From Mesostigma viride (lineage: Eukaryota > Streptophyta > Mesostigmatophyceae > Mesostigmatales > Mesostigmataceae), in contig RPFO01002136.1 in NCBI GenBank assembly GCA_009746045.1, positions 90,250 to 154,249 on the forward strand: DNA of 64,000 nt. The letters are read 5' to 3'. The notes beneath the pieces were generated by a model that saw only the letters and a program-made list of their open reading frames with translations, had not been told where the DNA came from and made no database searches. This document shows positions 489 through 50,527 of this stretch, piece by piece; position 1 is the first letter of the stretch; each line of letters begins with the position of its first letter. Position numbers and translations under genes: made by a program.

Positions 489-3400
489 TCAAGAGCCGTG
501 GGAGTGTGGCCTGTTTTCTTGATTTCGCATCTGCCCAACAGTGTCCTTGATCATGTCAGCAGATTTCAACCCAGATGATAATGCTGCAATGTCCGCTGCG
601 TACACCAGGTTGGCATAGACGTTGGCCAAGTTGGACATTAGAAAGCACGCGAAGGCGCTGGATTTAGAGGCGACTTCGACTGTTTCTTCAAAGCCGGCAT
701 GCTAGGTTGACATGAATATGCCATGCACAAGGTTCGCATAACGGTAGTACGCAGCCCCAGGGTTACCAAAACAACATCTGTGACACCACCGCGAGGGCTT
801 AGCATAGCATCTGGGGATGGGAAGAGTTCTAAGCAAACTTAGTTTCGAGGGTGCCAGTGTTGCAAGTAGTATGTTCCAAAATATCGATTGGCGATGACTT
901 GCCAACCTGGCTAGGGGGGTATATGTTTAGCTGCCAGATGGCCGACCAGCCAGCTGTTGGTGTCATATATTGCAAAGGCAGTAGCTCCCAGAAACAGCAA
1001 GCACCGCTCAAGGTAAAGCGTCATTCGTGCAGGCTTAGGAGCGCACTTACGCTGTCCTTGGCCTCCAGGCTCATCCCCTTGGCCTCCACCAGGTACTTGA
1101 CCAGCTCCAGGTTGCCTCCTCTAGTAGCAGCGAAGAGCAGCGCGTTGCGGCCATACTGCATTACACAAAGCCATGAAAGCCACAGCGAGCAGCATACCAC
1201 TGTTTGATTTTCACACAGATACTACTATGTATTTGGCAACAAAAAGGACAAGCATGACCAAATGCAGGCAAGCATGGGTCATGGCAGTGTCTCAGGGATT
1301 GCACCACGTGGCCACAAGAAATGTTGCCAACTCAACTGAAGTCCATGGGGGTTCACAAAAAGTATCCGCTCAGTACGCGATGGCAGCGAAACACGAGGCA
1401 TGGCCAGGACCTCAGCCAAGGACAGATGAGACCAGCAGTCATGCACCCAAGAGTGCAACCCAATCGCCAAGGCACCTAGAAAGCGGGCGCTGAAAACCGT
1501 TAGTCAACACAGGGTTAAGGTTGCTATGCTGCTTCATTAGGGAGCAGTTCCACGTCTTACCTTGCTCGTGGCCCCAAGGCTCATCCCCTTGCCCTCCAGG
1601 TACTTGACCAGCTCCAAGTGGCCTCCTCGGGCAGCGACAAGAAGTGCATTCTCATCAGTCTGTCTTGTGTAGAGGTGGTGCAAACCGCAGCAGCCAGTTT
1701 TTCAAACCGGGCAGCATGGAAGCGGGTAAAAATCTTTAGCAAGAGAGATACTACTTTGTACTTGGCAGTGGTACAGCGGCCACACACCACGGCGACCCAA
1801 CTTAGGACACTAATGCCTGCATGGAATACCCCAAGATGGGGCTGCCATTCCCCGGCATAAAGCACTCACAATGTGGATGCAGTGGTCGTTGGGCCGCTGG
1901 ACCTTGTGAGGTGGGGAGACGAAGAACCCAGCCGTGGCTTGGTTCATACTATGCACCAGCTAGAAGAAGTGAACCTTACTTCCCATCCCTTGCCGAAACC
2001 CTTTGCAAACCAGGTACCTGTGGCTGGGCATAGGCTGGGCACTATGTGACCAACCTACCATGTACAAATGTATGCGCGCCAGGTAACTGCAAGACGTGAG
2101 ACCAGGCAGATGATCGTGCCATATGGTTCCATTCTAAAAAGGCACGTACGATGTCCTTGGCCTCCAGGTCCATCCCCTCGTCCTCCACAAGGTACTTGAC
2201 CAGCTCCAGGTTGCCTCCTTTAGCAGCAAAATGAAGCACGGTGCCGTCATACTGCATAGCAACGGGAAAAGACGATGACGGAAAATAGGTTTACAAGATT
2301 GCAAGTGGGATAAGGCAGTTCAGGGTAACTGACCTGGGCAGGCACAGTGCACATCCCACGCTCCGTAGTGGTCCAAATGGTGGGGAGAGTGTGAGGAAGT
2401 GCGCGGGTATCTGCGGTGTTTTGTCGTTTTAAAACAACAGGTCGTATTTTCTCTGCAGGTTCCATGGACTTGGCCCATTTGGGGGGACAACAAATGACAG
2501 GATGGAGCGGACACAAAGTCCAGGCCCAGGCGCAGTGGTGTGCTGTCAGCCTCGACTTGCTTTGGTGCCTGACCATGAATTCTGGCAAACGCATCAAATG
2601 CTCCCGTATGGGAATGACAAAGTATAAACTACTGATACGTTATAGATTTTGCCTAGCTCAACAAGATCATTAACATATACCAGCCTGCCGAGTTCACGCT
2701 GTTGGAAGCCAGCCAGCTACTTAGGCGTGGCAAGTGCTCACATTTGCATGACCTTGTCTGCTGCAGACAAGTTTGCTAGCGGAAAACACAATACGGCCAA
2801 CAATGACTGTTACGTAGATCATCAGGACAGAAAAGGTAGACCATGTACTGGCTCAGGAAGGGAACATGGAGCTCCAATATACCCAAGCATGCAGCAACCA
2901 AGGAGACGTATATATGCCCTGTGTTGGTAGTAGTAGTATCCACTTGGCATGCGGATGCATTTTCTTCCCTGGTGCCATCGACAAGCTTGCTGGATAAGTC
3001 CGACGAAGCCATGTCTGTGTAAGCACTGACATCTTGCCAGCATCAAAGACTGGAATGAAGGCATCTGTTCCTCGAATGTTTAGAGGGTAGAATGTTAGGG
3101 ATTTTAGCAGCTTATACTGTCATGGTCAATGCAGTTCATTTGCTCCGGTGTGTCAAACCCTCGGAACAATAATATAGCAATAGCAATGCCTCTGGATATG
3201 GGAGGTACTGAGACAAGCATTCGACACGCGACTGGGCATAGGCTGGGCACTATGTGGCCAACGCGCCGACAAAATCATGCAAATTAAAGGCAATAAATTA
3301 ATGCAATGAAGAAGTGCGTCCAACCAGATAAGTTTGTCAAAGGCTGCCATGACAATGTCGGTGAGACAACAAGTACGCACCCTGCAACATGTGGCGTCAG

Positions 3401-6400
3401 AAGTACAGGTGTGAGCACTTGCCTCGTCCTTGGCGTCCAGGCTCATCCCCTTGTCCTCCACCAGGTACCTGACCAGTTCCAGGTTGCCTCCCGTAGCAGC
3501 GTGAAGAAGTGCATTTTTCTCCTTCTGTTTGCGTTAGTGCACGGAGGGGAATTGCAGCAAGCAGCACATTGCAATAATGGGTAAATGCCAACCTTGGCAT
3601 AGCTTATTTAATTCATGAGCCTAGAAACATGCATACGTAAAAAAAGCTTATGGCAGAAAGGTATAATAGATCAATCAGGACAGAAGGGAAAATAGATCAT
3701 CAGGACAAAAAAGGTAGACTATGTACTGGCTCAGGAAGGGAACATGTAGCTCCAATATGCCCAAGCATGCAGCAACCAAGGAGACGTATATATGCCCTGT
3801 GTTGGTAGTAGTAGTATCCACTTGGCATGCGGATGCATTTTCTTCCCTGGTGCCATCGACAAGCTTGCTGGATAAGTCCGACGAAGCCATGTCCGTGTAA
3901 GCACTGACATCTTGCCAGCATCAAAGACTGGAATGAAGGCATCTGTTCCTCGAATGTTTAGAGGGTAGAATGTTAGGGATTTTAGCAGCTTATACTGTCA
4001 TGGTCAATGCAGTTCATTTGCTCCGGTGTGTCAAACCCTCGGAACAATAATATAGCAATAGCAATGCCTCTGGATATGGGAGGTACTGAGACAAGCATTC
4101 GACACGCGACTGGGCATAGGCTGGGCACTATGTGGCCAACGCGCCGACAAAATCATGCAAATTAAAGGCAATAAATTAATGCAATGAAGAAGTGCGTCCA
4201 ACCAGATAAGTTTGTCAAAGGCTGCCATGACAATGTCGGTGAGACAACAAGTACGCACCATGCAACGTGTGGCGTCAGAAGTACAGGTGTGAGCACTTGC
4301 CTCGTCCTTGGCCTCCAGGCTCATCCCCTTGTCCTCCACCAGGTACCTGACCAGTTCCAGGTTGCCTCCCTTAGCAGCGTGAAGAAGTGCATTTTTCTCC
4401 TTCTGTTTGCGTTAGTGCACGGAGGGGAATTGCAGCAAGCAGCACATTGCAATAATGGGTAAATGCCAACCTTGGCATAGCTTATTTAATTCATGAGCCT
4501 AGAAACATGCATACATAAAAAAAGCTTATGGCAGAAAGGTATAATAGATCAATCAGGACAGAAGGGAAAATAGATCATCAGGACAAAAAAGGTAGACTAT
4601 GTACTGGCTCAGGAAGGGAACATGTAGCTCCAATATACCCAAGCATGCAGCAACCAAGGAGACGTATATATGCCCTGTGTTGGTAGTAGTAGTATCCACT
4701 TGGCATGCGGATGCATTTTCTTCCCTGGTGCCATCGACAAGCTTGCTGGATAAGTCCGACGAAGCCATGTCCGTGTAAGCACTGACATCTTGCCAGCATC
4801 AAAGACTGGAATGAAGGCATCTGTTCCTCGAATGTTTAGAGGGTAGAATGTTAGGGATTTTAGCAGCTTATACTGTCATGGTCGATGCAGTTCATTTGCT
4901 CCGGTGTGTCAGACCCTCGGAACAATAATATAGCAATAGCAATGCCTCTGGATATGGGAGGTACTGAGACAAGCATTCGACACGCGACTGGGCATAGGCT
5001 GGGCACTATGTGGCCAACGCGCCGACAAAATCATGCAAATTAAAGGCAATAAATTAATGCAATGAAGAAGTGCGTCCAACCAGATAAGTTTGTCAAAGGC
5101 TGCCATGACAATGTCGGTGAGACAACAAGTACGCACCCTGCAACATGTGGCGTCAGAAGTACAGGTGTGAGCACTTGCCTCGTCCTTGGCCTCCAGGCTC
5201 ATCCCCTTGTCCTCCACCAGGTACCTGACCAGTTCCAGGTTGCCTCCCGTAGCAGCGTGAAGAAGTGCATTTTTCTCCTTCTGTTTGCGTTAGTGCACGG
5301 AGGGGAATTGCAGCAAGCAGCACATTGAAATAATGGGCAAATGCCAACTTTGGCATAGCTTATTTAATTCATGAGCCTAGAAACATGCATACGTAAAAAA
5401 AGCTTATGGCAGAAAAGTATTAAAACGCGACTATTCCTGCTATAGCGGATGTGTAACACCAACACTCAAACGGTGGGTAAAAGGCGCCCACATATGCCCA
5501 GGGATCGGCAAGCCCATCAAAACGCATTTCTTTATACCTCGCTCACGATGACCAAGTGAAGAGGACCACTAGGGTCAGTCCGAAATGGGGACCGTAAACC
5601 AAGGGTATGATCCATGAGTAGCATTTCTCACAAGTTCAAGGTTGCCGGCTCATATGCTACTATACTAAGCTTCCCCCCAAAAAAGAACCTGGTGCAGTGT
5701 GTATTAATTAGCCGAGCATTAAAATGGTAATTATCTTATTAATTGAATAAGATTACATATAGCCCAGAAGTTATGCAGTCATGGAGTGATATCCACTACT
5801 GGTCAGGCAATACACAACTAGACATGTGTAGAGCTGCAAAACGCTAAGCTGTAAGTGGCATTGTTCCAGAATGGCAACCTTCCCCAGCGCCATCGGCATC
5901 ACCGTGCGGGTGTAAGAAATATTTGTAAACTTATCAAACTAAAAGATGCTTGTACTCTCCGCATGCACGTTGCCTTCTTGCTACGCTGCAGTTCTAAGCT
6001 TTGCACATCAGCTGCCAGCGTTTTACAACGCCCCCTTTACTAACCTTATCCTTGGCCAACATATCTGCACCCCCTGCGATGAGGTGCTGAACCACATCCA
6101 GATGGCCCTTTGCGCAGGCAAGGTGCAGTAAAGTTCTCCGCTTCTGCACGCAGCACCAGCAGACAGGGCTCATGAGACTTATGGGCGAACGGGGGCGACC
6201 CAACAAAACTGTGAGCCCACCATTTATGAGCAAACAAGAGGTGTAAGCATCCTTGAGAGATGCTTGATTTAGTGAGACGATGCAGTTGAGGGTCCCTGAG
6301 CATTTGCAATATTTCAACAAAAACAAATGAAATTACACCCCCTCACTCCCAAGAATCACCAGTCTTTATTGGAACAATGAGTGGACTGGGCCATCATGAA

Positions 6401-9400
6401 TAAATGGCAAGGTGGAACCGAATAAGAAACAACTCAGCACGTAGTGCATGCCCCCAGCAACCGAGAAAAAAAGGGTGGGTGGGCGGGTGAAAAAAAATAC
6501 CTAGACGACAAACTGCCGTTGGCTATATAAACCCCCTTCGGCCAAGCAGGACAGACGTCGACAACTGTCATCCACGTTCCGTGTAACGTCAGACTTGCGG
6601 CACAAACTCCTTAAGAATTACACAAGCTGTGAACTATTCTTACTCCTAGTTTCAAAGCCGACTAGGGCTTGCCACGCAAAATGCTTTCGTCACAAAATAT
6701 GGCCACTGACAAGTGGCGACCGTCGCGACACTAGCATGTGACGCCGGTTTTTCAGGAATGTCGTTACACATTCCGCACTAGCTGCCTAAGGACTAGTGGT
6801 GCGCGGCCGGACCAAGGGCAGCCAGCCCACAATTTCCCATATTTAATTTATGACTTAATTGTCTGACGCCTGAAACCCGTGCGGTCGGCGGGACATAAAA
6901 CCGGGGTCTATCCCAGCCGCCTGCGGCGGTCTCTCTCGTACCACTATACTTAACTATTTTCAAAGAAATCCGAGCAAAGACACCAGCAGCATAACGGTGG
7001 ATGATTTCTGGATCTCCGGACATGGCATGCATAGGATTATACAATGTGGAAATTCAACGATAATACTTTCAACCAGCAAGTGTGCACGGGTCCTAAGTAA
7101 CGGTTACAAGCGAAGGCATCATCTGTGGTAGCAACTTCATACAGGTTTATGGCTTTCAGAAGGTTCAAAAGTCGGGCATGCTGCGTGGGTAACGGCCAAG
7201 TTGCCTCATACCCGGCACCTACCACCACGAGTCTTTGCAACCAGGATGCCGGAAGCCACAGCTAAACCGTGGTCACCTACTTCTTAAGTTAGCAAGCTAC
7301 GAGCAGCCATAGTAGAATAAAGCTATACTTGAATTCATGCGCAAGTTTTCATGGATGATAATCGTGTACCTATGCAGGTGACCAAAAACTTCCAGCAAGC
7401 TTGTGAGCAGTGCGACCATACTAGGGCATAGCAAAAAAAAGGATACAAGTGTCTATATTGAAGTAGTTAGGGGTAATACTAGATTTTGTGCAAGTAACGT
7501 TGGCAAAAGCGTGTGGGGCAACTGTTCCTACACAAGCCTGGAAGGAACACTAAACTTGGGCTTGTGGCAAATAATCTCTTAAATTTTGTTTACAAATGCC
7601 AAGTGCATCGCTAAAACGCGTGATGCAAATTGATTGATGTGTAGGTTTGACTTGAATTAAATGTGATGACATGCTCAGATAAATACCTCAGAAGCAAGGT
7701 CAAGTAGACTTGCATGGTCGGGCATGCTCTTAACCTCCCGCATTCATCTAAGCATGATCCAGGACTCCAGGTGTAAACGGCAAGAGCACACCATTCCAGG
7801 TATTGAGATGACACCGTCACAAATTTACCTTGTCCTTGACCTCCTTGTCAGCGCCCTGGCTGATAAGGTGCTGGACGACATCCGCATGGCCGTTTGTCAC
7901 CGCAAGAATCAGCGGGGTGTCCCAAACCTGCATATGGCAGGCAGAGAAATTCAAGATACAGTCCCAGACCGAACATGGAATCCTTTCCTCTAGTTACTTC
8001 ATGCCCTCTAATCAAGCATCAGCACTAAGCTCCTGGTAAACCTGAAATATTCCGCTCATACGTACAGTCTCTGACCAATTGCCATACCTGACGTTTACTA
8101 AGCAGTGATTGTCAAATAAGAATGTCAGTAATGTCCTCTCATCTGCTTCTATAGTCTCCACAGCCATATTTGCGAAAGAACGGCTGCTTCTGACTGACAG
8201 CTGCAGCAATTCTGACACATCTCCATCTTCACCCACAGGCTGCCTTGCTTTCAACGCCTTGGTATGAGCCCTCAAATGACAGGGAGACAAGCAGCAAATG
8301 GAGTTCTTCAGCAGGCAGGCTCATCAAAAAATGAATCCACTTAAGTTTTTCTGGCTGGAGGAACTAAACTACCCCGCACCTTGTTCTTGGCCTCCAGGTT
8401 GGCACCAATGGCCACCAGACACTTGGCGATATCCAGGCGACCCTCCTTGGACGCCTCATGCAACGGGGTGTTCATTTCCTGTGTCATGCCACCATAGCAA
8501 GAACAGCCGAAGCAGTAGAAACCGCAAACCATCTCAGGGCATGCATTGTCAAACATATCATGGCCATGCTGCTGGAAGGTTCGCAATCCTTTGAAAATTT
8601 TACACCGCCTTTCCTTAATGCTCTCCGGGTGGGCAAGAGCGGGCTACCCAGTTGAAACACCAGCAAGTGTTTAAGTCAAAGAAAGTGCAAACCTGGGTAC
8701 CTTGTTACCGGATGTGAGTTCTGTGAGAAAAAAGCCCCAGTCCTGTTTATTCCATTCCCGTTAATGGATAAGTTGAAGCTGCCACTGTTATTCATCAGCA
8801 TGGATCCTCGACTATCGAAAGCCATGCTCCTTCTGGATTGGTGGTGTTTATGATAAGTTATTGAAACATCCACAGCAGGATATGGTCAGTCAGCAGGGCA
8901 TTAGCGCACTGCCATTGCTGCGAAATACTGGCGGCAACCCTGTCCACTGCGGATTGCCAAGGGATACTTTATATGGTGCCATCAAAATGCCATCAAGTGC
9001 TCACCTCATCCCGTCTGTCCATCACCATCTTCAAAGCCTCTACCATTCCCTTCATCTGCCCCTCCAGCTCTGCAGCTTTGGATAGGGAGGCTGACGACTC
9101 AGCTGCTTTCTCAGCCAAAGCCTGCTCTGCCGCAGCCGCCCTGGCTTGGAGACGCTGGAGCTCCTCCGCTGACGCGCGTGATGCCTCGGAATTCCGCTGC
9201 GCCTGCTTCTTCCAGAATTCGACCTGTGACTTGAAGGCATCAGCCCCAGCCTCAGGATATGCGTTTTCAGGAGACAGGCTCACAGTCCCATTTCTAAAAT
9301 TGGATGGGTCTTGTGATGCCTGCGCCTCTGGATGCTCCTTTGAAGCCTCCTTGCCTCCTTGTCCGATGCATGCGTCCAGCTTGCTGCTGATCTCGGCAAG

Positions 9401-9872
9401 CCTCTGCTCAACCCTCTCTAATTCTTGCGTGTGGTGTTGGCAGCAGCATGGCTTGCTGCCCCCCGATGCGCTTTCCTGAAAGCGACGTTAGCAAGACGAT
9501 GTCAAGGATCGCAAGGCTCATTACAGTCATGATATCTGAAGAACGTGCAAACCGTAGCAGTAAGACTTAGAGCATGATCAGCAGCTGCTTGCCATGACAT
9601 TTGACCAGTATAGTGGAACTGGATTTAATGTATTCCACGAGGTTAGTCGCTCCTATTCGAGCAAGAGCTGGCAAAGTAAAATTCACAAATATCGAAGAAA
9701 TATAGCATTATCAATTTTTCGAAGTCGTCCAAACTTCACCGTCTAGTAACACTAGTACTGAGAACTCTACTTAAGCAACCTGGAGGAGGATGACGCCACT
9801 AGCGTCGATAGAAACGGGAGATGAGTCGATGCTTTGCCCTCCATTTTCATTTTTCAATGAAACAAGATCCAT
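489..9872 (-). CDS. ankyrin-repeat protein with N-terminal coiled coil
   Basis: Twelve exons are proposed, in transcript order: 9780-9872, 9005-9475, 8380-8478, 7829-7927, 6045-6143, 5179-5280, 4301-4402, 3423-3524, 2150-2251, 1561-1659, 1051-1155, 489-701 (561 aa). Every length is a multiple of three and every junction is phase 0. Exon 2 codes an Ala/Glu/Gln-rich coiled coil (for example EELQRLQARAAAAEQALAEK). Exons 3-11 each code one ankyrin repeat of 33-35 residues, with cores such as TPLHEASKEGRLDIAKCLV and NALLHAATGGNLELV. The last exon is hydrophobic, then polar, and ends at a TGA. Ankyrin repeats bind partner proteins; no catalytic domain is visible, so the partner is unknown. Exons 6-8 are near-identical copies with GC-AG donors. 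The first and last exons are the least certain: the start exon has a modest donor (CAG|GTTGCT) and the terminal exon rests on an open frame after a TAG acceptor. Confidence 0.75.
2815..5420. repeat. 878-bp tandem triplication inside the ankyrin gene
   Basis: Units run 2815-3692, 3693-4570 and 4571 to about 5420 (the last is slightly short), with exact 878-bp spacing and only a few substitutions. Each unit carries one complete ankyrin exon (3423-3524, 4301-4402, 5179-5280) plus flanking intron. Middle-copy differences include AAKGGN for AATGGN; the first copy has LDAKDE where the others have LEAKDE. Near identity of the introns implies a recent duplication or ongoing conversion. Because each exon is phase 0-0, any unit number keeps the frame. 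Confidence 0.95.
6144..7828 (-). other. long intron of the ankyrin gene
   Basis: A 1685-bp interval lies between two ankyrin exons, the longest in this gene. I saw no exon, no transposon protein and no clear terminal repeats in it. Confidence 0.5.
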
Positions 9873-10673: not shown

Positions 10674-13600
10674 TTAATAAGGCGCGCCCTGCGACCAAGG
10701 TAGCCATTGTACTGTAGATATATCGTCATCCGGCATACGTGTAAAGACCTGGTTCATGCCCATGAGTGCATGGAAGACTTCCAGGGGGCTGGGGGTGTCA
10801 TTGTTAGGGCCCGGGTCCCATACTTTGTGTTGTTCCGTCGCCAGGAGCCAGTAACGACGCATAGCCAGGTTCCAAGAGGAGATAAACCGGCGGACCACGG
10901 CACCTCTCGTGTACGCGGCACGTAACGTGAATACGGTCTCGTTGCGAACTTGCCATATGGTGTGAAGCATCGTCGTGCGTAGCCATATCCATGCCATCTG
11001 GTTGGCTGTGAGGCTCGCGTCCCGTAATCCCGTGATGCCGAAAATAACCGTAGATAGTGTGACGGTGGTGGGGGGAGCTGTAATAGCCATCCACTTGGCC
11101 CATATACCCAGCAGCCATTGCCAAACCCCGGCGAGTTGGCAGTCCAGAAATCTGTGCTCAATTGTTTCATCTGGAAAGTTGCATAAGCACGCCGCCGCGT
11201 GGGAGTACCGGTGGTGCAATTGGGAATTGACCCCGATGGCCCGATGCATAAGCAGGTGCTGGACGTCGGTGGCCCGTTTGTCAACCAATGGGTGATCAAC
11301 TGCCAAGGTAATGTTCTTGATCCAGGTGTAGCCCGGCCACTCGGGGTGCCAGCGGAGGCGACCCGGGTGCATCCTATGATTTTTATGTAGAAGTAGCCGG
11401 TATCCCCAGTCTGCCGTGTACTCGAAAAGGCACTTCGTCATGGGGGTGCCGCCAGATGTGAGGACCCACCCAAATTCTAGCGGGTCTAGAGCAAGCGTGT
11501 CCAGTCGCCCTTTGCCAACATGTAGCCATGTGGTGTCGCGTATCACTGTGGTGGGGTCCAAGGGTAACATGCACGCCTGTGACAGTGACCACGGGACCAC
11601 TCGAATGCGGTGACATTGAAATGCTGGAATGTAGGCGTACGATGTAATCAATTTGCCGAGAAGTCCTTGACCGTCGGGTGTCTCCTGGAGCAATTGTATG
11701 GTAACGCCCGTCGACGCGACCGCAACGATGCAGCCCTTATGTATGGGCGTGTCGCGATCCGGGTAATAGCTCACCCATTCCCCGACTTGTAGGGGTTTGC
11801 GTGGGGTTGTCATGAGGGTATGCCATCCTGCGGGAATTGCTTGTAGAAGGTTGTCCCAAGCTGGTCGGCTGGGCATGTTTGCGATCCACGCACTGATTTC
11901 CGTGTATGTTAGGAGGCGATATCGGTCACCGTCAGCCGCGTATAAATCGATGATTCGCGTAACCGGCGGGTTGGCCGTCAAAAAGCCCTCATATGGGTTG
12001 CGGCCGCTTAAAACACCAAACACATTATGCTCACTATCGCGCAGCAAATCATTGAAATATAATGGTTGGCGTGCCACCTCTTCCCGCGTGGTAGGGTGAG
12101 CAATTCTGTCCGGTTTTAGGTTCTTATAACCTTTCCACATACGTGCCCAGTACCATGATAAGCCTTTATACGAAGTGAGCGCACATGTAAGTATTGCTGC
12201 CCCCAAGTGCCATGATGTACCATTGTTGTGGGTATAGGTTGTGGCGAAAGCTTCTTGTGCCAACATACAACCAGGGTGTGCGTTTACGCCTATGAAAGCG
12301 GTTAGGATCTGTTTGGTGTACACTGACCATAAGCGCCACTCCATATTATGTAAGCCCAAGCCTCCTTGAACCCATGGCATATAGGACATGTCCCGATCGA
12401 TCCATCCCGGCACCGTGTGTGTTATGATACCCTGCTGTTTCCAAACAAAATTGCTGCCGATTCGTTGGATGATCTTGGTGGTGTACTCGTTAGGTGGGTG
12501 ACCTTGGCAGTAGTAGAGCACTTTGGAGAATAACATTTGGTTGGTGATGAGGACCCTGCCCCGTAGGCTGAGACGGGGAACCGCTGCCCATCTTGATGCC
12601 GCTTGGAGCATGCCTGTGAGTTTGCCACTGTGTGTTGTGTTGTCATACAAAAAGGTGGGGTGTTCAGCAAGACGTCCATCCATAGTGCAACCGATAGGGC
12701 AGTTGTGTAATAGGTGGTGACCGTCTGGCTGGACCCATGTCACAGGCAGATTAGGGAGTGATAAGCGGGGGGAGGATCCTCTCCCGATGTGCAGCCCCGT
12801 GGACTTTTGCACGTTACACCGCTGTTGAGAGGCCATAGAGTATGTCGTGATATTCTCCATGATAGCATGCACATCGGTAGTGGAGGTGCAGACATTAGTG
12901 GTGTCATCAACATAAGCAGTTTGGAACAAACCTCGCGGTTTACCTTGGATGGGGAAGCCCCTGATCCTGTTGTCGCGAGCGTGCAAAAAGAACAGCCCGG
13001 CATGCGCAAGAAGAAACAGGAGCGGGGACATGCAGTCGCCTTGTGGGAGTGACCTAGAGCTAGTGCCTGTGCGTGAGAAGTGCCCGTTTAGGAGTAGGGT
13101 CCATGAGAGCGATTGAATCATACCGATGGTGACATGCGTGAAAGTGCCACCAAATCCGAAACCGCGCAATGTCTTCTCAAGGTAGTCCCAACACATGCGG
13201 TCAAAAGCTTTTTTGAAATCCCAGAATAGTATGATGCCGAGTATGTTGTGGCGCCACGCTTTTTCCACTATGTCCATAAGCATGGTAATGCTATCGTTTA
13301 TGTGTAGGTTAGCGCGGAAGCCGACTTGTTCCGGACCGATTAGGTCGTCGAGTACTGTGTAAATGCGTAGTTGTAGTATTTTACTGATGATTTTGTACGC
13401 AACCGTGAGTAGTCGTATGGGACGGTAGTTTTGCCATTGAGTTTTAGACCCCTTTTTAAATATGAGGATTAGTGCGGTTTCTGCCCAGTTGCCAGGGACG
13501 ATACCTGTGCGCCATACTTCGAGGACGCATTTGTAAAAGCCGGCAGAAAGGTCGGGCCAAAACTTCCTCCAAAATTCTACAGGGATGCCGTCCACTCCGG

Positions 13601-15080
13601 GTGCACTACCGAGTTTGATTTTGAGCATAGCAGCCTGTGTCTCAGCTTGTGTGGGTGTCTGATCTAGTTCTTGCTGCTGCGTGGTGGTGAGGCGCCGTGG
13701 TATCGCCTGAAGGACTTGGTGGATAGCTTGAGGTGCTTGAGGGTGCGGTTTACTTCGGAATAGCTTCGTAAAATATTGATGACCGCTGTTTAGTATGGAA
13801 TGGGTGTCGGTGTGGATGCCCTGGTCGTCGTGAATTTCAGTTATCAGCGTGTGTGTTCGTTGCTTCGGGAGGAGTGCAAAATATTCTTTATTCATTTTTT
13901 CCCCCGTTGTGTGCCACCAAAGGTTTTCCGCATCTATGGCGTTAGCGTGTCTTTCGTATCGTAGTTTGTCCAAGGCTAGCTGGGCTTGTTGCATTTTCGC
14001 CATGTCATAAGTAGTGAGTGTTTGCTTAAGTTGTAGACGATTGACAATACGTTCGTAACATCGGTATTCATGGCCTTTCTGTTGTCTAAGCTCAGCAGTG
14101 TATTTCTTAGAAAGTTGCAGTACATGTTGTAGGCCGGCTTGCATCCATCGACAATGATCGGTATAGTGAGGGATGCTGGCCACCCACTCTCGCCAAAAAG
14201 CTTTTACTTGAGCCGTGAATGTTTGATCCCTCAATAAGTCTCGGTTGAAGCGGGGGATACCGGGTCCCCGCGTCGGTGGGGTGTGGTGCGTTAAGGTGAT
14301 AATACAAGGGTAGTGGTCCGAAAGAGTGATAGAGCGATCTACCCTAGCATGACATACAAGGTCCGCCCAAGCGTGCGTGGCATAGATTCTGTCTAGACGG
14401 CGTGTGATGCGGTGACCGTCGCGTGTTGCAAGCCAAGTGTGGTCGTTGTCCCTGGAGCGCAGTAGGTCGTGTAGGTTAAGCTCTAGTAGCTGTTCGTGAA
14501 AGGGGTTTGTACGTGATTGAGGGTGCGCCGCCATGTCTAGATTGAAATCACCCATCAATATGACCTCCAGGCCGTGGGAAATAATGGCGTGGATCATCTG
14601 AAACATGTCTTTGAAAAAATTATGTTGTTCAGCTGGGTCGGTTGGGGCGTAAATTGAAAGAAGGTACCCCTGCTTGCTACCCCAGGTGATGTGCTGTCGT
14701 ACCCAGCGGCCTTGCCATTGAGCCGCCGCCGTATCTACCGGTTGGGACCAAGTGTGGCAGGTGAGGTGTGAGGAAGCCGTTTTACGGTATTGAATCAAAG
14801 CTGTGCCCCCCTGGGTTCCTCGCGCCCAAGCCCATCGACTCTCACTATTAGGAGCTAGTGCTCTCACTGCTTTGTTGGCCGTGACCCCGGGGCCTTGAAT
14901 TTTATGCTCTTGCAGGCCCAGCCAGATCTCATGGGCTGGGCCGCCGTAGCCCTGCAGTAATGATGCGAGGTGAAGGGTTAATTGCTTGATACGAGTAGTA
15001 TTGGGAATGCCATTAGCAGTACGTACTCCATAGCTATTGAGACCACGTACATTCCATGATACTATGGTGAGTTGGCTCAT
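10674..15080 (-). CDS. LINE ORF2: APE endonuclease / reverse transcriptase
   Basis: A 1468-residue polyprotein starting at an ATG 27 bp after the ORF1 stop. The N-terminal apurinic-like endonuclease shows SWNVRGLN (about 8-15), QEHK (57-60), YAP (144), GDFN (177-180), RRLDRIY (227-233) and SDHY (254-257). The reverse transcriptase shows SAPGVDGIP (492-500), WDFKKAFD (620-627), LPQGD (678-682) and the YVDD active site (723-726). Near residue 1260-1330 lies a zf-RVT-like region with the Cys/His series CLCNFPDETIEHRFLDC. The endonuclease nicks the target and the RT primes on it. All catalytic motifs look intact and no stop interrupts the frame. Confidence 0.95.
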   Translation of the reverse strand: MSQLTIVSWNVRGLNSYGVRTANGIPNTTRIKQLTLHLASLLQGYGGPAHEIWLGLQEHKIQGPGVTANKAVRALAPNSESRWAWARGTQGGTALIQYRKTASSHLTCHTWSQPVDTAAAQWQGRWVRQHITWGSKQGYLLSIYAPTDPAEQHNFFKDMFQMIHAIISHGLEVILMGDFNLDMAAHPQSRTNPFHEQLLELNLHDLLRSRDNDHTWLATRDGHRITRRLDRIYATHAWADLVCHARVDRSITLSDHYPCIITLTHHTPPTRGPGIPRFNRDLLRDQTFTAQVKAFWREWVASIPHYTDHCRWMQAGLQHVLQLSKKYTAELRQQKGHEYRCYERIVNRLQLKQTLTTYDMAKMQQAQLALDKLRYERHANAIDAENLWWHTTGEKMNKEYFALLPKQRTHTLITEIHDDQGIHTDTHSILNSGHQYFTKLFRSKPHPQAPQAIHQVLQAIPRRLTTTQQQELDQTPTQAETQAAMLKIKLGSAPGVDGIPVEFWRKFWPDLSAGFYKCVLEVWRTGIVPGNWAETALILIFKKGSKTQWQNYRPIRLLTVAYKIISKILQLRIYTVLDDLIGPEQVGFRANLHINDSITMLMDIVEKAWRHNILGIILFWDFKKAFDRMCWDYLEKTLRGFGFGGTFTHVTIGMIQSLSWTLLLNGHFSRTGTSSRSLPQGDCMSPLLFLLAHAGLFFLHARDNRIRGFPIQGKPRGLFQTAYVDDTTNVCTSTTDVHAIMENITTYSMASQQRCNVQKSTGLHIGRGSSPRLSLPNLPVTWVQPDGHHLLHNCPIGCTMDGRLAEHPTFLYDNTTHSGKLTGMLQAASRWAAVPRLSLRGRVLITNQMLFSKVLYYCQGHPPNEYTTKIIQRIGSNFVWKQQGIITHTVPGWIDRDMSYMPWVQGGLGLHNMEWRLWSVYTKQILTAFIGVNAHPGCMLAQEAFATTYTHNNGTSWHLGAAILTCALTSYKGLSWYWARMWKGYKNLKPDRIAHPTTREEVARQPLYFNDLLRDSEHNVFGVLSGRNPYEGFLTANPPVTRIIDLYAADGDRYRLLTYTEISAWIANMPSRPAWDNLLQAIPAGWHTLMTTPRKPLQVGEWVSYYPDRDTPIHKGCIVAVASTGVTIQLLQETPDGQGLLGKLITSYAYIPAFQCHRIRVVPWSLSQACMLPLDPTTVIRDTTWLHVGKGRLDTLALDPLEFGWVLTSGGTPMTKCLFEYTADWGYRLLLHKNHRMHPGRLRWHPEWPGYTWIKNITLAVDHPLVDKRATDVQHLLMHRAIGVNSQLHHRYSHAAACLCNFPDETIEHRFLDCQLAGVWQWLLGIWAKWMAITAPPTTVTLSTVIFGITGLRDASLTANQMAWIWLRTTMLHTIWQVRNETVFTLRAAYTRGAVVRRFISSWNLAMRRYWLLATEQHKVWDPGPNNDTPSPLEVFHALMGMNQVFTRMPDDDISTVQWLPWSQGAPY

Positions 15081-15107
15081 GTTAGTGGCGTATCAGGCAG
15101 GTCTTAC

Positions 15108-16754
15108 CTAGTCACGGTGGGCGCGGCCGCCACGTCCGTTGCGTCCGGCGCCGCCACGGATGTCCAGGCCGGTGTTGTGAGTGACCCCGGTGGCTGCCGG
15201 CCGGGCGCGCTTAGTTCCTTGCCCCGGCGCCTCCGTGTCCATGTGTTCCCCGATCTCGTCCCCCTCCTCAAGATTCTCCGGTAGGCTGAGCTCTGCCCCG
15301 TTGGCGGCGTTGGGAATGTGCAGCGGCGATCCCGGTGGCTCGGTGTCCGCGGTTGGCTGGTCCTTGCGGCGGACAGGCCTGTACTGTGGCCAGGGGGTGC
15401 TGCTGCCCTCGAAAAGTTGCTTCTTGGACGTTAGTAGCCATCGCCCGGCCGCATCCGGTATCTTGCCCGTGTCATCTGGCTGGTATGTGCCTGGGAGGAG
15501 GATCTTCACTAGGTCAATTCCCCTCCTGGGACCCCCATTCTCAACGTGGGCCATGTGAAGGGTGGGGGTTTCCGGGTTGAGTGTGACCAGTGGGTTCAGC
15601 GCCAGGCTGTCAATGTGCATCTGCGCGTCGGTCCAGAAGTCGAGTGGGCGTTGTGTTTTGTACCCACGAGGTTCCCAGACGTACAGGTAGGGTTCGTTGG
15701 CCTCGTTGAGCGGGCAGAAAATGGAGTCCTCGTTGCCGGTTGAGGTGATGAGAAGGTGGAGCTTGAGGGCAATCCTTGCCCCCGCCGGCATACCCAGGTC
15801 GTGACAGACCCTCCAGTCGGCCAGTCCGTTCCAGAGGAAGCGGTTGATATCCTCTCCCATGGTTGTGTTCCGGCTGCCGTTGGGATCCTGGGCATTATCG
15901 GGGCGCGGTGTGGGGCCGAGGTTGGCATGAGCCATGCGGTCCTTCTTAGCCCTGTTAGCCGTGGACCTGTGCGGGCAGTCCTTAGGCTCATGTTCCCGGC
16001 TCCTCATGCAGCTGGTGCACACCGGGCGCTCCATGTCGATCTGCGTGGTGATCTTGTGGTTGCTGGCGATCTTGCCGGAGTTGTCGTGAGTTTGCACCGT
16101 GATGATGTCCGGAATGCAGCGGGGCCCATCCTCCGAGTAGCCGCCCGGCATGCCGTAGATCAGGTTTAGACCGTCTCCTGTAAGCCCACGTGCCGGGTCG
16201 AAGTTGGGTGTGAACCCCATGGCTGCGGAGTTCACCTTGATTTCTTCTTTTGCGGCCCGTGATGCTTTGCCTTGAACGGATTCCTCGTAGAGCGCCGGGT
16301 TCGACGGCGTGCCCCAGGGTCTGATAAGCATAGGTATCACCGCAATGTCGCGTGTTTCTGCCGGTAAGTGCGACAGAGTGAGGGTGAATTCGGCACCACT
16401 GTACTCGGGCTGGTACTTGTGAAGCCGGAAGACCTTGGGGCCCACCATGATGGACGGGTTGCCCTTGCCGTGGACGTAAGCTTTAAGAACTGCCTCAGCA
16501 GCTTCTGCGGATGGGAAGCGTACATGGAAGTTTGGTTGGTTTTTTACGCCGCCCACTATTATACCGCCCCGCTCGGCCATCAGCTTCCTCAGCTCATTCC
16601 TGTCAGAGACCGAAGCATCCATGCCGTGTAGGATGATGACCAAGATTTTCTCTGTAGATGCTTGAAGCGCAGCTTTCAATTCAGGGGACGGTGGAACTTT
16701 GCCATGGACAAGGTCGGTGTGGCTCATGGCGTACGGGGCCTGCGGGGCAACCAT
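15108..16754 (-). CDS. LINE ORF1: RNA-binding protein with zinc knuckle
   Basis: A 548-residue ORF1-type protein that would coat the LINE RNA. The frame is open to 16775, but the first ATG is at 16754 in a good context (TCCATGG). Residues near 40-115 look like an RRM fold (ILVIILHGMDASV, then NFHVRFPSAEAAEAVL). A zinc-knuckle-like motif, CTSCMRSREHEPKDC, lies near residues 246-260; it has five rather than four residues before the His. The C-terminus is Arg/Gly-rich (GRNGRGGR), typical of nucleic-acid binding. ORF2 follows after 27 bp, so translation of ORF2 probably depends on reinitiation or a similar mechanism (inference). Confidence 0.88.
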   Translation of the reverse strand: MVAPQAPYAMSHTDLVHGKVPPSPELKAALQASTEKILVIILHGMDASVSDRNELRKLMAERGGIIVGGVKNQPNFHVRFPSAEAAEAVLKAYVHGKGNPSIMVGPKVFRLHKYQPEYSGAEFTLTLSHLPAETRDIAVIPMLIRPWGTPSNPALYEESVQGKASRAAKEEIKVNSAAMGFTPNFDPARGLTGDGLNLIYGMPGGYSEDGPRCIPDIITVQTHDNSGKIASNHKITTQIDMERPVCTSCMRSREHEPKDCPHRSTANRAKKDRMAHANLGPTPRPDNAQDPNGSRNTTMGEDINRFLWNGLADWRVCHDLGMPAGARIALKLHLLITSTGNEDSIFCPLNEANEPYLYVWEPRGYKTQRPLDFWTDAQMHIDSLALNPLVTLNPETPTLHMAHVENGGPRRGIDLVKILLPGTYQPDDTGKIPDAAGRWLLTSKKQLFEGSSTPWPQYRPVRRKDQPTADTEPPGSPLHIPNAANGAELSLPENLEEGDEIGEHMDTEAPGQGTKRARPAATGVTHNTGLDIRGGAGRNGRGGRAHRD

Positions 16755-17261
16755 GGAAAAGCGCAGACAAACCACAAACGAGGAAGAATGTCAGTGTCGG
16801 GTGGTGGTGGGGTGCCGGAATTGAGCTGATGGGTGATGACCATGGGTGGAAGCCTCATTGCCTTGCCGTGTCTAGCAATGACGGCAGATCTCAGGGGGGG
16901 TTTCTAGGCGAAGTCGAATCGCCAGGGAAGGCGTTAGTGGTTCCTCCACTAAACCGCCAGTGCATGGTAATTCCGTAACCAGGGGTTAAAGTGTGTCGTC
17001 CGCACCTGCGGTAAGGGGGTATTTGCATAGTCAGGAAACCCAGCACCTGCCGGGTATGCACTGACCATAGCTTGTACCGTCCTACGAACAGCACTTTACC
17101 CGTAATCCAACCGCAATCCGGGCTAGCCGTCATGAGAACAATGTGGTTTGCAGGTGCTTACGTACCCACGTAAGACAGCCTGTGACCGACATGGACCGCA
17201 TGGCGGCTAGCCTCAAAGGTTGCGGGCAAGAGGGAGCTCGTTAGACGCACCTTTTAACGAA

Positions 17262-29689: not shown

Positions 29690-44448
<14,759 letters not shown>

Positions 44449-45785: not shown

Positions 45786-46340
45786 TAATTAATTAATTAA
45801 TTAATGAGAGATGAATTAATTAAACACGTGCTCCCGTTGGGGAGACTGTCACGGAGCACCTATGTGTACGTGCACAACAACGGGTATAGGGGGCAGAGAC
45901 CCCCCCCCTTAATCCCCTCATCACGCCACAGGGGGCTCAATCGGACCCGTCTAACTATAAACGATCGGCGGGGCATCCCCTGTGGGTGCAATTAATATGT
46001 CCCGCGTGTGAGCATTGTATTGCTATGGAGACGTGAAAAACAAGCATCCGGTGCTAGGCGAAGCGCATAGCTAGGCTGGCTGATGTCTGTTAGTAGGCTA
46101 TGCATATGGCTGGTTAGTAGGCTGGTTAGTAGGCTATGCATGGCAACGTTCTGCCCTGCATTGGCGTTGCCGGTTATGGGATGGCGATGTCAAGTTTGCA
46201 TCATGTTAATGCTAATGCATCATCTGGTGTGGATCCCATCATATAGGCATTATTACATTAATTAATTAATGAAACTCGTGCTCCCGTTGGGGAGTCATCG
46301 ACGGAGCACCGAAGTGCTTTTAATCCCTGTATGTGCACAA
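45769..46340. mobile_element. (TTAA)n elements: one copy plus the left part of a second
   Basis: Two copies of a (TTAA)n tract are each followed by CGTGCTCCCGTTGGGGAG and a CGGAGCACC block (45823 and 46272). The first continues through GTGCACAAC and GGGCAGAGACCCCC into about 200 bp. The second stops at ATGTGCACAA (46331-46340), where a LINE has inserted; its continuation resumes at 50631. Confidence 0.75.
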
Positions 46341-46932
46341 GCTCGGCGTGGCCCAAAGCGTCGTCATCAAAACGGCACGACGGCTCGGCGGCCCCACCGC
46401 CCCTGTCTTGGTGGAATTCCACTGCAAGGAGGACAAACTGCAGGTGCAGAAGGCCCGCCGGAACCTCCACGATACCCAACTGAGCATCGACGATTACTAT
46501 ACCCCGGAGCAGCTTGAGGCCCGGGCTGCCGCTTTGAACCGGCCGGAGGTCCACGAGGCTCGGGCAGCCAAGCAGGCCAACCCGCAACTACGGTGCAGCA
46601 TCTATGCCCGCCTCTTTAATGGCGTCTTCATCGTCCGCATTAACGGCCAGGACCTTCCTCCAATGACGGCGACCCCCATGGATACCGCCGTGCCAGCGCC
46701 CCAGCCCCTGCTCGGCCCCCGCCGTCACCGCCATCGCCACCGGCATCGACGGTCACCTGCTCCCCAGCACGTGTGGGGATCCGCCGGGGCAACTTCAGCT
46801 CAGGTATGGCTGCCAGGCTTGGCCGTCCCCCTAATAAATTCGTTCGCTTTGCACCTGAGCCGGAGCCCGCGCTGCGAACCCTTCTCTCCTATCAATGACG
46901 ACGCTCGCGGCCCCGCGGCTCCGCGGCTTTAG
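46341..46932 (+). pseudogene. LINE ORF1 C-terminal fragment
   Basis: The frame lacks its own start because the element is truncated in the ORF. It shows an L1 ORF1-like C-terminal domain: VLVEFHCKEDKLQVQKARRN, then LSIDDYYTPEQLEARAAALN and a YARLFNGVFIVRING end. A His/Arg/Pro-rich tail follows. It overlaps the start of the ORF2 frame. Confidence 0.65.
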
Positions 46933-49900
46933 CAGTGGGATCTGCCTAACTCCCCTTCCCGCCCCTTTGCCTTCGCAGCCCTCGGGCTGTCGGAGAGAGA
47001 GCACCGGGTCGGCAGTGAGCCAGGTTCGCCCCGCCTCGCGCGGCCGCCTCCGAAACCTCCTCAGACTGCACGCATTTCTTATGCGTGCAGACGCAGACTC
47101 ATTCTACCTGGCCACCCGAGCCAACCGTCGGCGTCGCCTCGACGCGTTGGCAGGAAGAATCGAAACGGTGATTGAAAGCATAAGTCCCCAACCCGCCCCC
47201 CCTACCCCACCACCTCCACCCCCACCCCCATCACCACCCTGCTCCATCTCCGCCCCCACCCCCGCCTGCACCCCCCTTTTCGGTCAACGCGCGCCCTTGG
47301 TCATCGCCACCTTCAACGCCCGCACGCTCCAGCCCGACGCTGACCGCTGTCACTGCCTGCGCAGTGACGACTGTCAGTGCCATCGAGTCTCCAATCTTAT
47401 TGGTTTCTGCATCGACAATAATATCGCCATCCTGGGAATCCAAGAACACAGGCGCACTGCATCGGCCCGCGGATCAACTGCCCTTGTTGCTGACGACATC
47501 GACGGCTGGCGGTTCTACTACGGAGGCGGCGACGGCACCGGGAACGGGGGCGTCGGTCTCCTCTGCTCCCCGCTCGCCGTACGCCACATGGGCGAACCCC
47601 AGCTGGTCAACGCTCGGCTCCTCGTGGCCACTTTTCATTCGATGGAGGGCCACTCGACCTACGCCCTGACGGTGGGCGTTGGTTACGCACCCCACTCCGG
47701 CCACCCAGAACAAGACCGCAAGGACTTCTTTGCAGCGCTGGAGAACCTGGCGAACGGCATCCCTGGTCGCAACTACCTCGCTCTGCTGCTGGACGCCAAC
47801 GCCACGCTACCACCGGGTACTGGCGGATGTCAGCACGCCCCCAACGGTACGGTCTCCAATGCCAACACTGAACTTTTTGCTGATTTGCTTACGACATGCG
47901 ATTTGGTCACTGCCAACACCGCTTTCCACATAGTCCAGATGCTTTGGTCACACACACCTCGCCAACTGGCACTGAACGCTGCATTGACTATGTTGTAATG
48001 CGCAAGCGTCATCAAGGATCTGTACTAGCTGCTCGCTCGCATGTGATCCCCCTGGTGCGCTCCGATCATCGCATCGTCACCGCCCGCATCCGCCTGCGAT
48101 TCCCCTCGCCCTTTCGTAAGCACGTGGCACCCCTGATTTGCGCACACTTCAGTTGCTCGAGAAATCTGACGACGCTCTGGAGGACTTCCCTGAAAAACGC
48201 GCCCACAAGCGCGCCGCAGAGGCGTTCGTCGACGCGCTGGACATCCCGGCCAGCCACGCCCAGCTGTTCGCTGCCGGCCCGGCATCGGCCCTTCGGCACC
48301 TCGCTGACAAGCTGCCCGCGGCCGGGGCCCTACTGCCCCCCCGCCGCCCGCCCCGCTTCACCAGCCTGCACCGGCTCCCCGCCGTCATCCAGGCCCGGCA
48401 AGCCCTGCGCGACAACAGCGACCCCGCCCGCTACGCCCGCCTCAAAGCCGATTACCACTCGGCCATCCGGCAGGCGACCAAGGAGCAGGAGGACCTTCAT
48501 GTCCGCGAGTACTTCGCCCACCTCAAGGACCAGCACGGCAAGTACGCCTGGACCCGCCTGCGTCACGCCCAACGGCCCGCCGGCGGCGCGCAGCCGGCGC
48601 CGCGGACGCTCTCTGGCTCACCGCAGCAGCAGCTCGACCAGTGGTATTCCTCCCAGTCCCGGCTGCTCGGCGCCCCCCCGCCGCCTCCGCCGCTTGGCCC
48701 TCTGGCGGCCGCACGCCTGGCAGTAGCACCGGCGGACGTCCCTGCGCCGCCCACGCCGCCCGCCGCTGAGCAGGACTACACGTACCCAGCCCTGACGGAA
48801 CCCCTGGCCGACCCCAACGAGCTCCCGCCGTTCACCGAGCTCGAGCTGAGCACCGCCGCCAAGCAACTCCGCTTTATGCCGCCGTTGGACCTGACCAGCT
48901 CCCAGCCCCGGTGATTAAGCTGACGGCGCTCACGGGGTTCCTGCTTGACGTCTGCAACCGGATCCTGCTTGCCGACGCGCCGCCGATTCCTGAGTGGCAG
49001 CACAGCTACCGTATTATGCTGTACAAAAACAAAGGTTCCCCTGACGACCCCGCCAACTACAGAGGAGTCTGCATCCAGAGCGCCGCACTTAAGTTGTTCA
49101 TGCGCATGATCCTCAACCGCCTTCGTTCTGCTCTCGACTGTCACCTTGGGGAAAGTCAAATGGGCTTCCGTCCTGGGCGCAACACCGTCATGGCCATCTT
49201 CGTCGCGCGTCGCCTCTTCGAGGAAATCGCTCTCCTGCAACCTGGTGAGTTTCCCGCCATCCTGATCTTCGTCGACTTCATCAAGGCTTTTGATTCTGTC
49301 CTCTGGGACGCTCTATGGGCTGTACTTGCTCGCGCTCGCGTCCCCACTCCCCTGATTACCGTCATCCGCACGCTGTATGAGGGGTCGACCACTTCGGTGC
49401 GCACTCAACACGGCATTACCCCGCCATGCCCACTGCAGACCGGCGTCTGGCAGGGTTGCGTCCTGTCGCCGTACCTGTTTATTATTGTAGTGGATTATGT
49501 TATGCGCCAGGCACGTGCTCGCTTTGCTAGCATTGCAGGCCGTGCCCCTGGCCTAGCGATCACGAACGAGCTTGGGGAAGGGGGGCCGACTAACAAGCAG
49601 AATTTACTAGCTGACCTCATTTATGCCGACGACATCACGCTCATCGAGAAGCCGGAGTCTGCCCAACTTTGGCTGGACTGCCTGGCGCTCGAGGCTCGGG
49701 CGGTTGGTCTAGAAATCAGCCCCAAAACGGAGGCCCTGGCCCTCGGCATGGCAGGGCCCCCACCCACACTCCGCCTCTTAGACGATGCCGAGGTCAACTA
49801 CCCTCCTTCAGGCCGCTTCAAGCTGCTCGGCAGTTGGCTTCCCGACTGCGAGGACGACATGACGACACGGATCGGCATGGCGTGGGCGCACCTCCATGAC

Positions 49901-50527
49901 CACCGCCGCTGGTGGAGCAACCCCGCCCTACCCCGGATCGTCAAGCGTGACCTCTTCAAGGTCGTCATTCTGACGATCCTGACCTACGGCGCCGAGACGT
50001 GGACACTGATGCAGGAGCTGGAGCAACGACTCGACGGCGCCGTCACCAAGATGCTGCTGCGCAAGGCCCTTAACATCCCCTTTGGTTTGCACATTAGTAA
50101 TGAGGATTTGTACGCTGATTTGCCCTATGTTTCCCACATTATTAGGCACAGGCGCCTGGGCCTAGCCGGGCACCTGGCCCGCACAGATCAGGTAGATACA
50201 TCAGATAGACTAGCTGGCACCAAGCCCGCCCAGCCTGGGCGATATGTCCTCACCTGGCGTGCCCCCGGCCGCGCGCGGCAGGGCCGCCACCCGTGGACTT
50301 TTCGTGATAGACTCGGCATGGACATGTGCTACACTAGACGTGACGGGCTCACCCCCGGGCAGCCTCCTGGTTTGTCTGTAATATGGAGGCAGATGGTGCG
50401 CAAGGATAGATGGCAAGTAGTGATGAAGGAGACCACCCCCAAGCCTGTGGGGGCTCCGCGTGTGACCAAGTATGGCATTCATAGCGATTCGGGCCGCGGT
50501 GCCCACACCCCTGTAACTAGGACCTAG
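46895..50527 (+). pseudogene. LINE ORF2 (endonuclease + RT), frameshifted
   Basis: The endonuclease begins near 47295 (LVIATFNARTLQ), with IQEHR, YAPHSG, LLLDANATLP and SDHRIVTARI. The frame must change near 47930, near 48150 and near 48870 to keep homology. After the last shift the RT reads YAAVGPDQLPAPVIK, MLYKNKGSPDDPANYRG, GFRPGRNT, FVDFIKAFDSVLWD, GVWQGCVLSPYLF and IYADDITLIEKPE, and ends at 50527. LLLDANA stands where GDFN is expected, a further departure in the endonuclease. At least three frameshifts make it non-functional as read. Confidence 0.85.

Follow-up and report, generated by a model that had tools for sequence, protein, structure and literature searches.

A triplicated exon in a predicted ankyrin gene

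The window analysed here is a 64,000-nucleotide (nt) stretch of Mesostigma viride DNA (assembly GCA_009746045.1, contig RPFO01002136.1, positions 90,250 to 154,249 of the forward strand), in which a predicted minus-strand gene encodes a run of ankyrin repeats and contains, at 2815-5420, a unit of 878 base pairs (bp) in three direct head-to-tail copies. The copies start at 2815, 3693 and 4571, a spacing of 878 and 878. Self-BLAST of the first 10600 bases against the whole window aligned 2815-4542 with 3693-5420 at 98.785% over 1728 bp, and 2815-3664 with 4571-5420 at 98.706% over 850 bp (E 0.0 for both). These matches far exceed chance and, together with the unit spacing, they bear out the initial annotation, which had proposed an exon-bearing 878-bp tandem triplication at this position. 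The array amounts to 2.97 units; the third copy stops at 5420, without the final 28 nt of the 878-bp period, which are part of the junction. The units and junctions are:

2815-3692, minus strand: unit 1, 878 bp, its right end taking in most of junction J1
3651-3730, unstranded: junction J1, with a doubled stretch of about 26 nt
3693-4570, minus strand: unit 2, 878 bp, taking in most of junction J2; possible hybrid of units 1 and 3
4529-4608, unstranded: junction J2, identical to J1 over 80 nt
4571-5420, minus strand: unit 3, 850 bp, without the junction filler

Each unit holds one open exon of 102 nt, equal to one ankyrin repeat of 34 residues. The predicted gene has nine ankyrin exons between 8478 and 1051, all of them 99, 102 or 105 nt long (multiples of 3), with an AG acceptor and, as predicted from the sequence, phase 0-0. 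A 471-nt exon upstream and a possible last coding exon carry on the same phase. In the order of the gene, the predicted exons are:

9005-9475, minus strand: upstream exon of the same gene, 471 nt, phase 0 ends, coiled-coil-like as judged by eye
8380-8478, minus strand: ankyrin exon, 99 nt
7829-7927, minus strand: ankyrin exon, 99 nt
6045-6143, minus strand: ankyrin exon, 99 nt; donor gttagt, missed by the motif script through its donor rule
5179-5280, minus strand: ankyrin exon E3, 102 nt, phase 0-0, GC donor
4301-4402, minus strand: ankyrin exon E2, 102 nt, phase 0-0, GC donor; T to K at residue 11
3423-3524, minus strand: ankyrin exon E1, 102 nt, phase 0-0, GC donor; E to D at residue 30
2150-2251, minus strand: ankyrin exon c, 102 nt, older paralogue of the triplicated exon
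1561-1659, minus strand: ankyrin exon b, 99 nt, older paralogue of the triplicated exon
1051-1155, minus strand: ankyrin exon a, 105 nt, older paralogue of the triplicated exon
489-701, minus strand: possible last coding exon with stop, starting in phase 0, called on an open frame and an AG acceptor only

The claim that every unit carries one complete phase 0-0 ankyrin exon is thus confirmed for the predicted exons E1 to E3. The added statement that each comes with its introns holds in part: there is intron sequence in every unit (608 nt downstream of the exon and 140-168 nt upstream), but only parts of introns, the breakpoints being inside them. As a 102-nt exon with symmetric phase 0 leaves the reading frame intact, any number of units would stay in frame if spliced as predicted, and the same claim in the initial annotation agrees with the phases and lengths of all nine ankyrin exons.

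A profile built from seven of the nine exons, with the near-identical E1 and E2 omitted, was run on 2011 six-frame pieces of the window and recovered every one of the nine, none with an E-value above 4.5e-18; the two further pieces listed (11 in all) scored E 0.6 and 0.72. The spliced prediction of 530 amino acids (aa) matched Pfam Ank_2 (5.7e-56), Ank_4 (1.4e-54) and Ank (3.1e-52) above the curated cut-offs. The table of eight families also holds Ank_5, Ank_3 and ANK_LRRK2, together with Ank_KRIT1, which lies below its own cut-off. A match of MerR_1 to residues 433-457 (3.2e-05, 24.4 bits, cut-off 21.6) falls inside ankyrin exon a and was judged a chance match. The exon at 9005-9475 gave a single weak Pfam line, fvmX2 (0.00063), below the cut-off, and no non-ankyrin signalling domain appeared in the Pfam search of the spliced prediction at E 0.001. 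For the 303-aa ankyrin part, the best PDB match was 4rlv_A (ankyrin-1/ankyrin-2, 4.9e-67). The predicted product therefore looks like an ankyrin repeat protein, with tandem repeats of about 33 residues that match Ank profiles; ankyrin solenoids tolerate extra internal repeats.

Junctions, private sites and the order of events

The two junctions are identical across the 80 nt compared, and in both a stretch of about 26 nt is present twice in slightly different form. This stretch is doubled at neither outer flank of the array, the left flank having one copy. Such a peculiar doubling, the same at J1 and J2, suggests that the first duplication probably served as the template for the second. The outer breakpoints lie in predicted introns, 2815 being 608 nt downstream of E1 and 5420 being 140 nt upstream of E3. 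No long homology was found between them when two 210-bp stretches were compared; the longest common word, CAGAAAAG, has only 8 bp and occurs at 5410 and 2828, which makes exchange between long repeats unlikely as the first step. A mobile element or long flanking repeat as the cause of the first duplication was rejected on the same ground. The 8-bp word near both breakpoints suggests microhomology at the first join, yet by eye the two ends were not simply joined at it. Inside the window, matches to the unit were confined to its copies, the paralogous ankyrin exons and a 31-bp intron piece (BLAST, E up to 1e-3, low complexity masked; megablast matches of at least 80 bp).

Among the 850 columns aligned across the three units there are 16 variable sites (11 transitions and 5 transversions) and no indels. 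Every variable site is private to one unit, five to unit 1, five to unit 2 and six to unit 3, and none has three states. The sites private to unit 1 (2830, 2842, 2869, 3016 and 3435) lie mostly to the left, and those private to unit 3 (3128, 3156, 3572, 3582, 3593 and 3660, in unit 1 coordinates) mostly to the right. Only 2 of 30 pairs are inverted, and 8 of 462 arrangements are as extreme (p 0.017); the test used 11 of the 16 sites, the five private to unit 2 being excluded. This placing is what unequal exchange would give, and suggests a hybrid origin of unit 2 from units 1 and 3.

GC donors, older exons and the surrounding sequence

The donors of E1, E2 and E3 are GC (gcaagt), and the other seven of the ten listed exon donors are GT. 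Neither these GC donors nor the minus-strand orientation of the gene figure in the initial annotation. The motif gcaagt equals the consensus gtaagt save for position +2. Most likely, the three exons share the GC donor through descent, as one event and not three. If the splice moved to the next intronic GT, the exon would gain 4 nt and the reading frame would shift. A small minority of donors have GC where GT is usual, and GC donors are reported as enriched in alternatively spliced genes of human, nematode and Arabidopsis (PMC2490688). Given this enrichment and the unusual donors here, skipping of one to three exons is possible, so that the GC donors may permit some triplicated exons to be left out and may be a source of length variants.

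Stretches of exons a, b and c are 76-91% identical to the triplicated exon (BLAST). The ratio of nonsynonymous to synonymous divergence (dN/dS, Nei-Gojobori) was 0.46-0.85 in the 12 comparisons involving exons a, b or c, with about 23-25 synonymous sites per comparison, too few for proof; one codon of exon a was omitted, and one of the partner in comparisons with b. The three comparisons among E1-E3 contain zero synonymous changes and hence yield no ratio. Synonymous divergence with the older ankyrin exons across 1051-5280 is only about 0.21-0.56, yet their introns show hardly any alignment, a combination that might be due to gene conversion limited to exons or to some other form of exon homogenisation.

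The idea that the older units retained their introns was rejected, as exons a, b and c align with the triplicated exon and their introns hardly do so, save for the 31-bp piece. This was assessed on 28 pairs of 8 intron stretches with two scorings and 40 shuffles: five pairs exceeded z 4 in at least one scoring and a single pair, which alone we rely on, did so in both. That pair, 1660-2149 with 2815-3422 (z 17.4 and 9.3), represents the 31-bp piece, found at 2024-2054 and at 3232-3262 (also 4110-4140 and 4988-5018) with 97% identity; 100 shuffles gave no match. The piece links the intron downstream of exon c with the triplicated unit, and the exons themselves are less alike. A structural RNA in this piece was considered and rejected, the two 51-nt stretches folding ordinarily (z -1.71 and -1.10), and there was no Rfam match at gathering score within the window. 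In the intron upstream of the array, a 20-bp match at 5627-5646 to the exon part coding GNLELVR was equalled by 0 of 100 shuffles, and the profile match of E 0.72 (5578-5649) spans it. We do not claim it as a relic ankyrin exon, given that 90 tests were made (combinations of 5 exons, 9 stretches and 2 scorings), 2 of them with no more than one shuffle in 100 doing as well.

No other near-identical tandem array of similar unit size was found in the whole-window self-comparison (megablast, matches of at least 80 bp). The other tandem arrays listed by megablast and Tandem Repeats Finder (score at least 300, longest period 500) have periods of at most 58, except one 94-bp pair with offset 76, and the remaining direct megablast matches are ankyrin-exon pairs at 84.9-90.1%. 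Five short-period arrays are listed, at 32520-33192 (42 bp x16), 34310-34494 (3 bp x61.7), 38963-39196 (58 bp x4.0), 58135-59074 (23 bp x40.9) and 59439-59836 (9 bp x44.2), with 96-97% matches; those of 42, 23 and 9 bp are open in at least two frames. The minus strand at 10674-16790, immediately upstream of the ankyrin gene, carries a long open element resembling a long interspersed nuclear element (LINE), with an open reading frame (ORF) of 1472 aa containing endonuclease and reverse transcriptase domains; a 560-aa ORF precedes it and has no Pfam match at E 0.01. A second LINE-like stretch on the plus strand (46324-50527) has several overlapping open frames and a reverse transcriptase domain in 48770-50524 (RVT_1, 3.7e-25). 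The introns and the LINEs point to eukaryotic DNA. In a collection of viral contigs, part of the ankyrin protein gave 14 pattern hits, none confirmed, and the LINE protein gave no pattern hit; in bacterial or archaeal contigs, the LINE protein gave 7 hits and the second reverse transcriptase 21, again none confirmed, as was to be expected of such collections. Finally, an ORF on the minus strand at 26017-26601 matches the putative serine esterase domain DUF676 (4.1e-11) and is perhaps an exon of a lipase-like gene.

Explanations and known systems

We consider it likely that the array is a real, recent and frame-keeping intragenic tandem triplication in an intron-rich ankyrin gene on the minus strand; the two-step order is less sure than the tandem growth itself. 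In the proposed course, non-homologous or microhomology-driven joining inside introns would have produced a first duplication, whose junction received a short templated insertion. Unequal homologous exchange between the two units, or equivalent copying, would then have copied the junction and left unit 2 as a hybrid. If spliced as predicted, each unit would lengthen a continuous ankyrin solenoid by one repeat of 34 residues and leave the frame intact. The ankyrin protein thus seems to have recently gained two whole repeats, which likely gives it a longer solenoid in which three repeats are nearly equal. The initial annotation had described repeat-protein growth caught in the act. The sequence supports recent growth, probably in two steps, as an inference; the 16 variable sites in 850 columns indicate that the duplication is not of the present generation.

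An assembly artefact, in which only one or two units exist in the genome and the assembler drew extra copies from the other haplotype or from errors, appears unlikely. Highly similar repeat units are hard for assemblers, the units are 98.7-98.8% identical, and three differing unit sequences could in principle stem from two haplotypes. Against this, a tandem junction such as that shared by J1 and J2 should exist in some molecule, and the absence of its doubling from both outer flanks makes stitching of flanking sequence a poor explanation, so that probably at least one of the tandem junctions is genuine; the lack of indels and the excess of transitions also speak against read error. The caution in the initial annotation that a collapsed or expanded assembly must be excluded is therefore answered in part, the artefact being less likely and the count of three provisional. 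Alternatively, three equal copies could have arisen in one step, for instance through repeated template switching, and each could then have mutated on its own; the array grows in this course as in the two-step one, and only the order of events differs. We hold this one-step triplication to be possible, if doubtful: the even numbers of private sites and the lack of three-state sites are in keeping with it, but the uneven placing of the sites private to units 1 and 3 is not.

Several observations weigh against the favoured reading of a triplication that lengthened the protein. None of the three triplicated exons has the usual GT donor. Variable sites make up 2 of 102 exon positions and 14 of 748 intron positions (Fisher p 1.0), so the exons have been no more constrained than the introns since duplication, and each of the two exon changes replaces an amino acid (T/K and E/D); with low power, there is no sign of selection yet on the added repeats. 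The hybrid test was picked after the sites had been seen and rests on 11 of 16 sites, and gene conversion between units could mimic the hybrid pattern. The GC donors, the two protein changes and the equal variability of exon and intron would also fit an array in decay, with GC as a damaged splice site and all three exons skipped. Such decay would leave the triplication real but would be at odds with a lengthened protein, and we think it improbable, as the three exons are all open with AG acceptors, GC is a known minority donor (PMC2490688) in a motif otherwise like the consensus, and the next GT would break the frame. These explanations are not all mutually exclusive. We would likewise give little credence to a live, hypervariable ankyrin-exon array, a variable number tandem repeat (VNTR) whose unit number differs between individuals and whose GC donors vary the repeat number further. 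If that were true, one gene would give rise to ankyrin solenoids differing in length and binding surface, and the locus would record at the DNA level a mode that has been proposed for long ankyrin arrays, 'seed, then copy the same unit'.

With its near-identical units, whole exons and intron breakpoints, the locus appears to be an exon-bearing intragenic tandem repeat of the kind known from human NEB and LPA. The triplicate region of nebulin (NEB) is, as here, a block of repeat-protein exon sequence in three tandem copies, and is described as prone to copy-number change (PMC9109913, PMC9142044). The NEB block has eight exons, in contrast to one exon and one repeat here. In LPA, the kringle IV-2 unit carries whole exons and sets the kringle number. 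This VNTR is a polymorphic tandem repeat that makes up a large part of the coding sequence of the gene (PMC11201333); its module is different and its polymorphism documented, whereas the array here is known from one sequence.

The predicted array also resembles the kind with one repeat per exon and equal intron phase at both ends, the fold being ankyrin and not leucine-rich repeat (LRR). In Tetrahymena, arrays of 90-bp LRR exons likewise have a fixed length and a single intron phase, and recent clonal exon expansion with unequal crossing over has been proposed for them (PMC6564038), but they are phase 2 and very many, compared with a single phase 0 triplication here. Repeat-coding LRR exon arrays of brown algae are described as growing by exon duplication (PMC11378527); the ROCO exons are 72 bp, phase 2 and part of a GTPase, and no ROC or NB-ARC domain was found in the Pfam search of our spliced prediction at E 0.001. 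For large ankyrin arrays, a 'memory' has been described in which a copied unit is favoured for the next copy (PMC7314423). The identical junctions fit this mode at the DNA level; the available text of that study argues from protein sequences without DNA junctions, which here are readable. Among human proteins, strong recent gain or loss of units is reported as not found in the available text of PMC3995336. A literature search not keyed to the species returned no published description of this very locus, which carries little weight. In summary, the locus is a neat but ordinary case of known repeat-protein lengthening and leaves the current understanding of such growth unchanged. Many repeat arrays are too old to reveal how they grew, whereas here the unit, the junctions and the placing of the differences can still be read, which makes the two-step mode directly testable.

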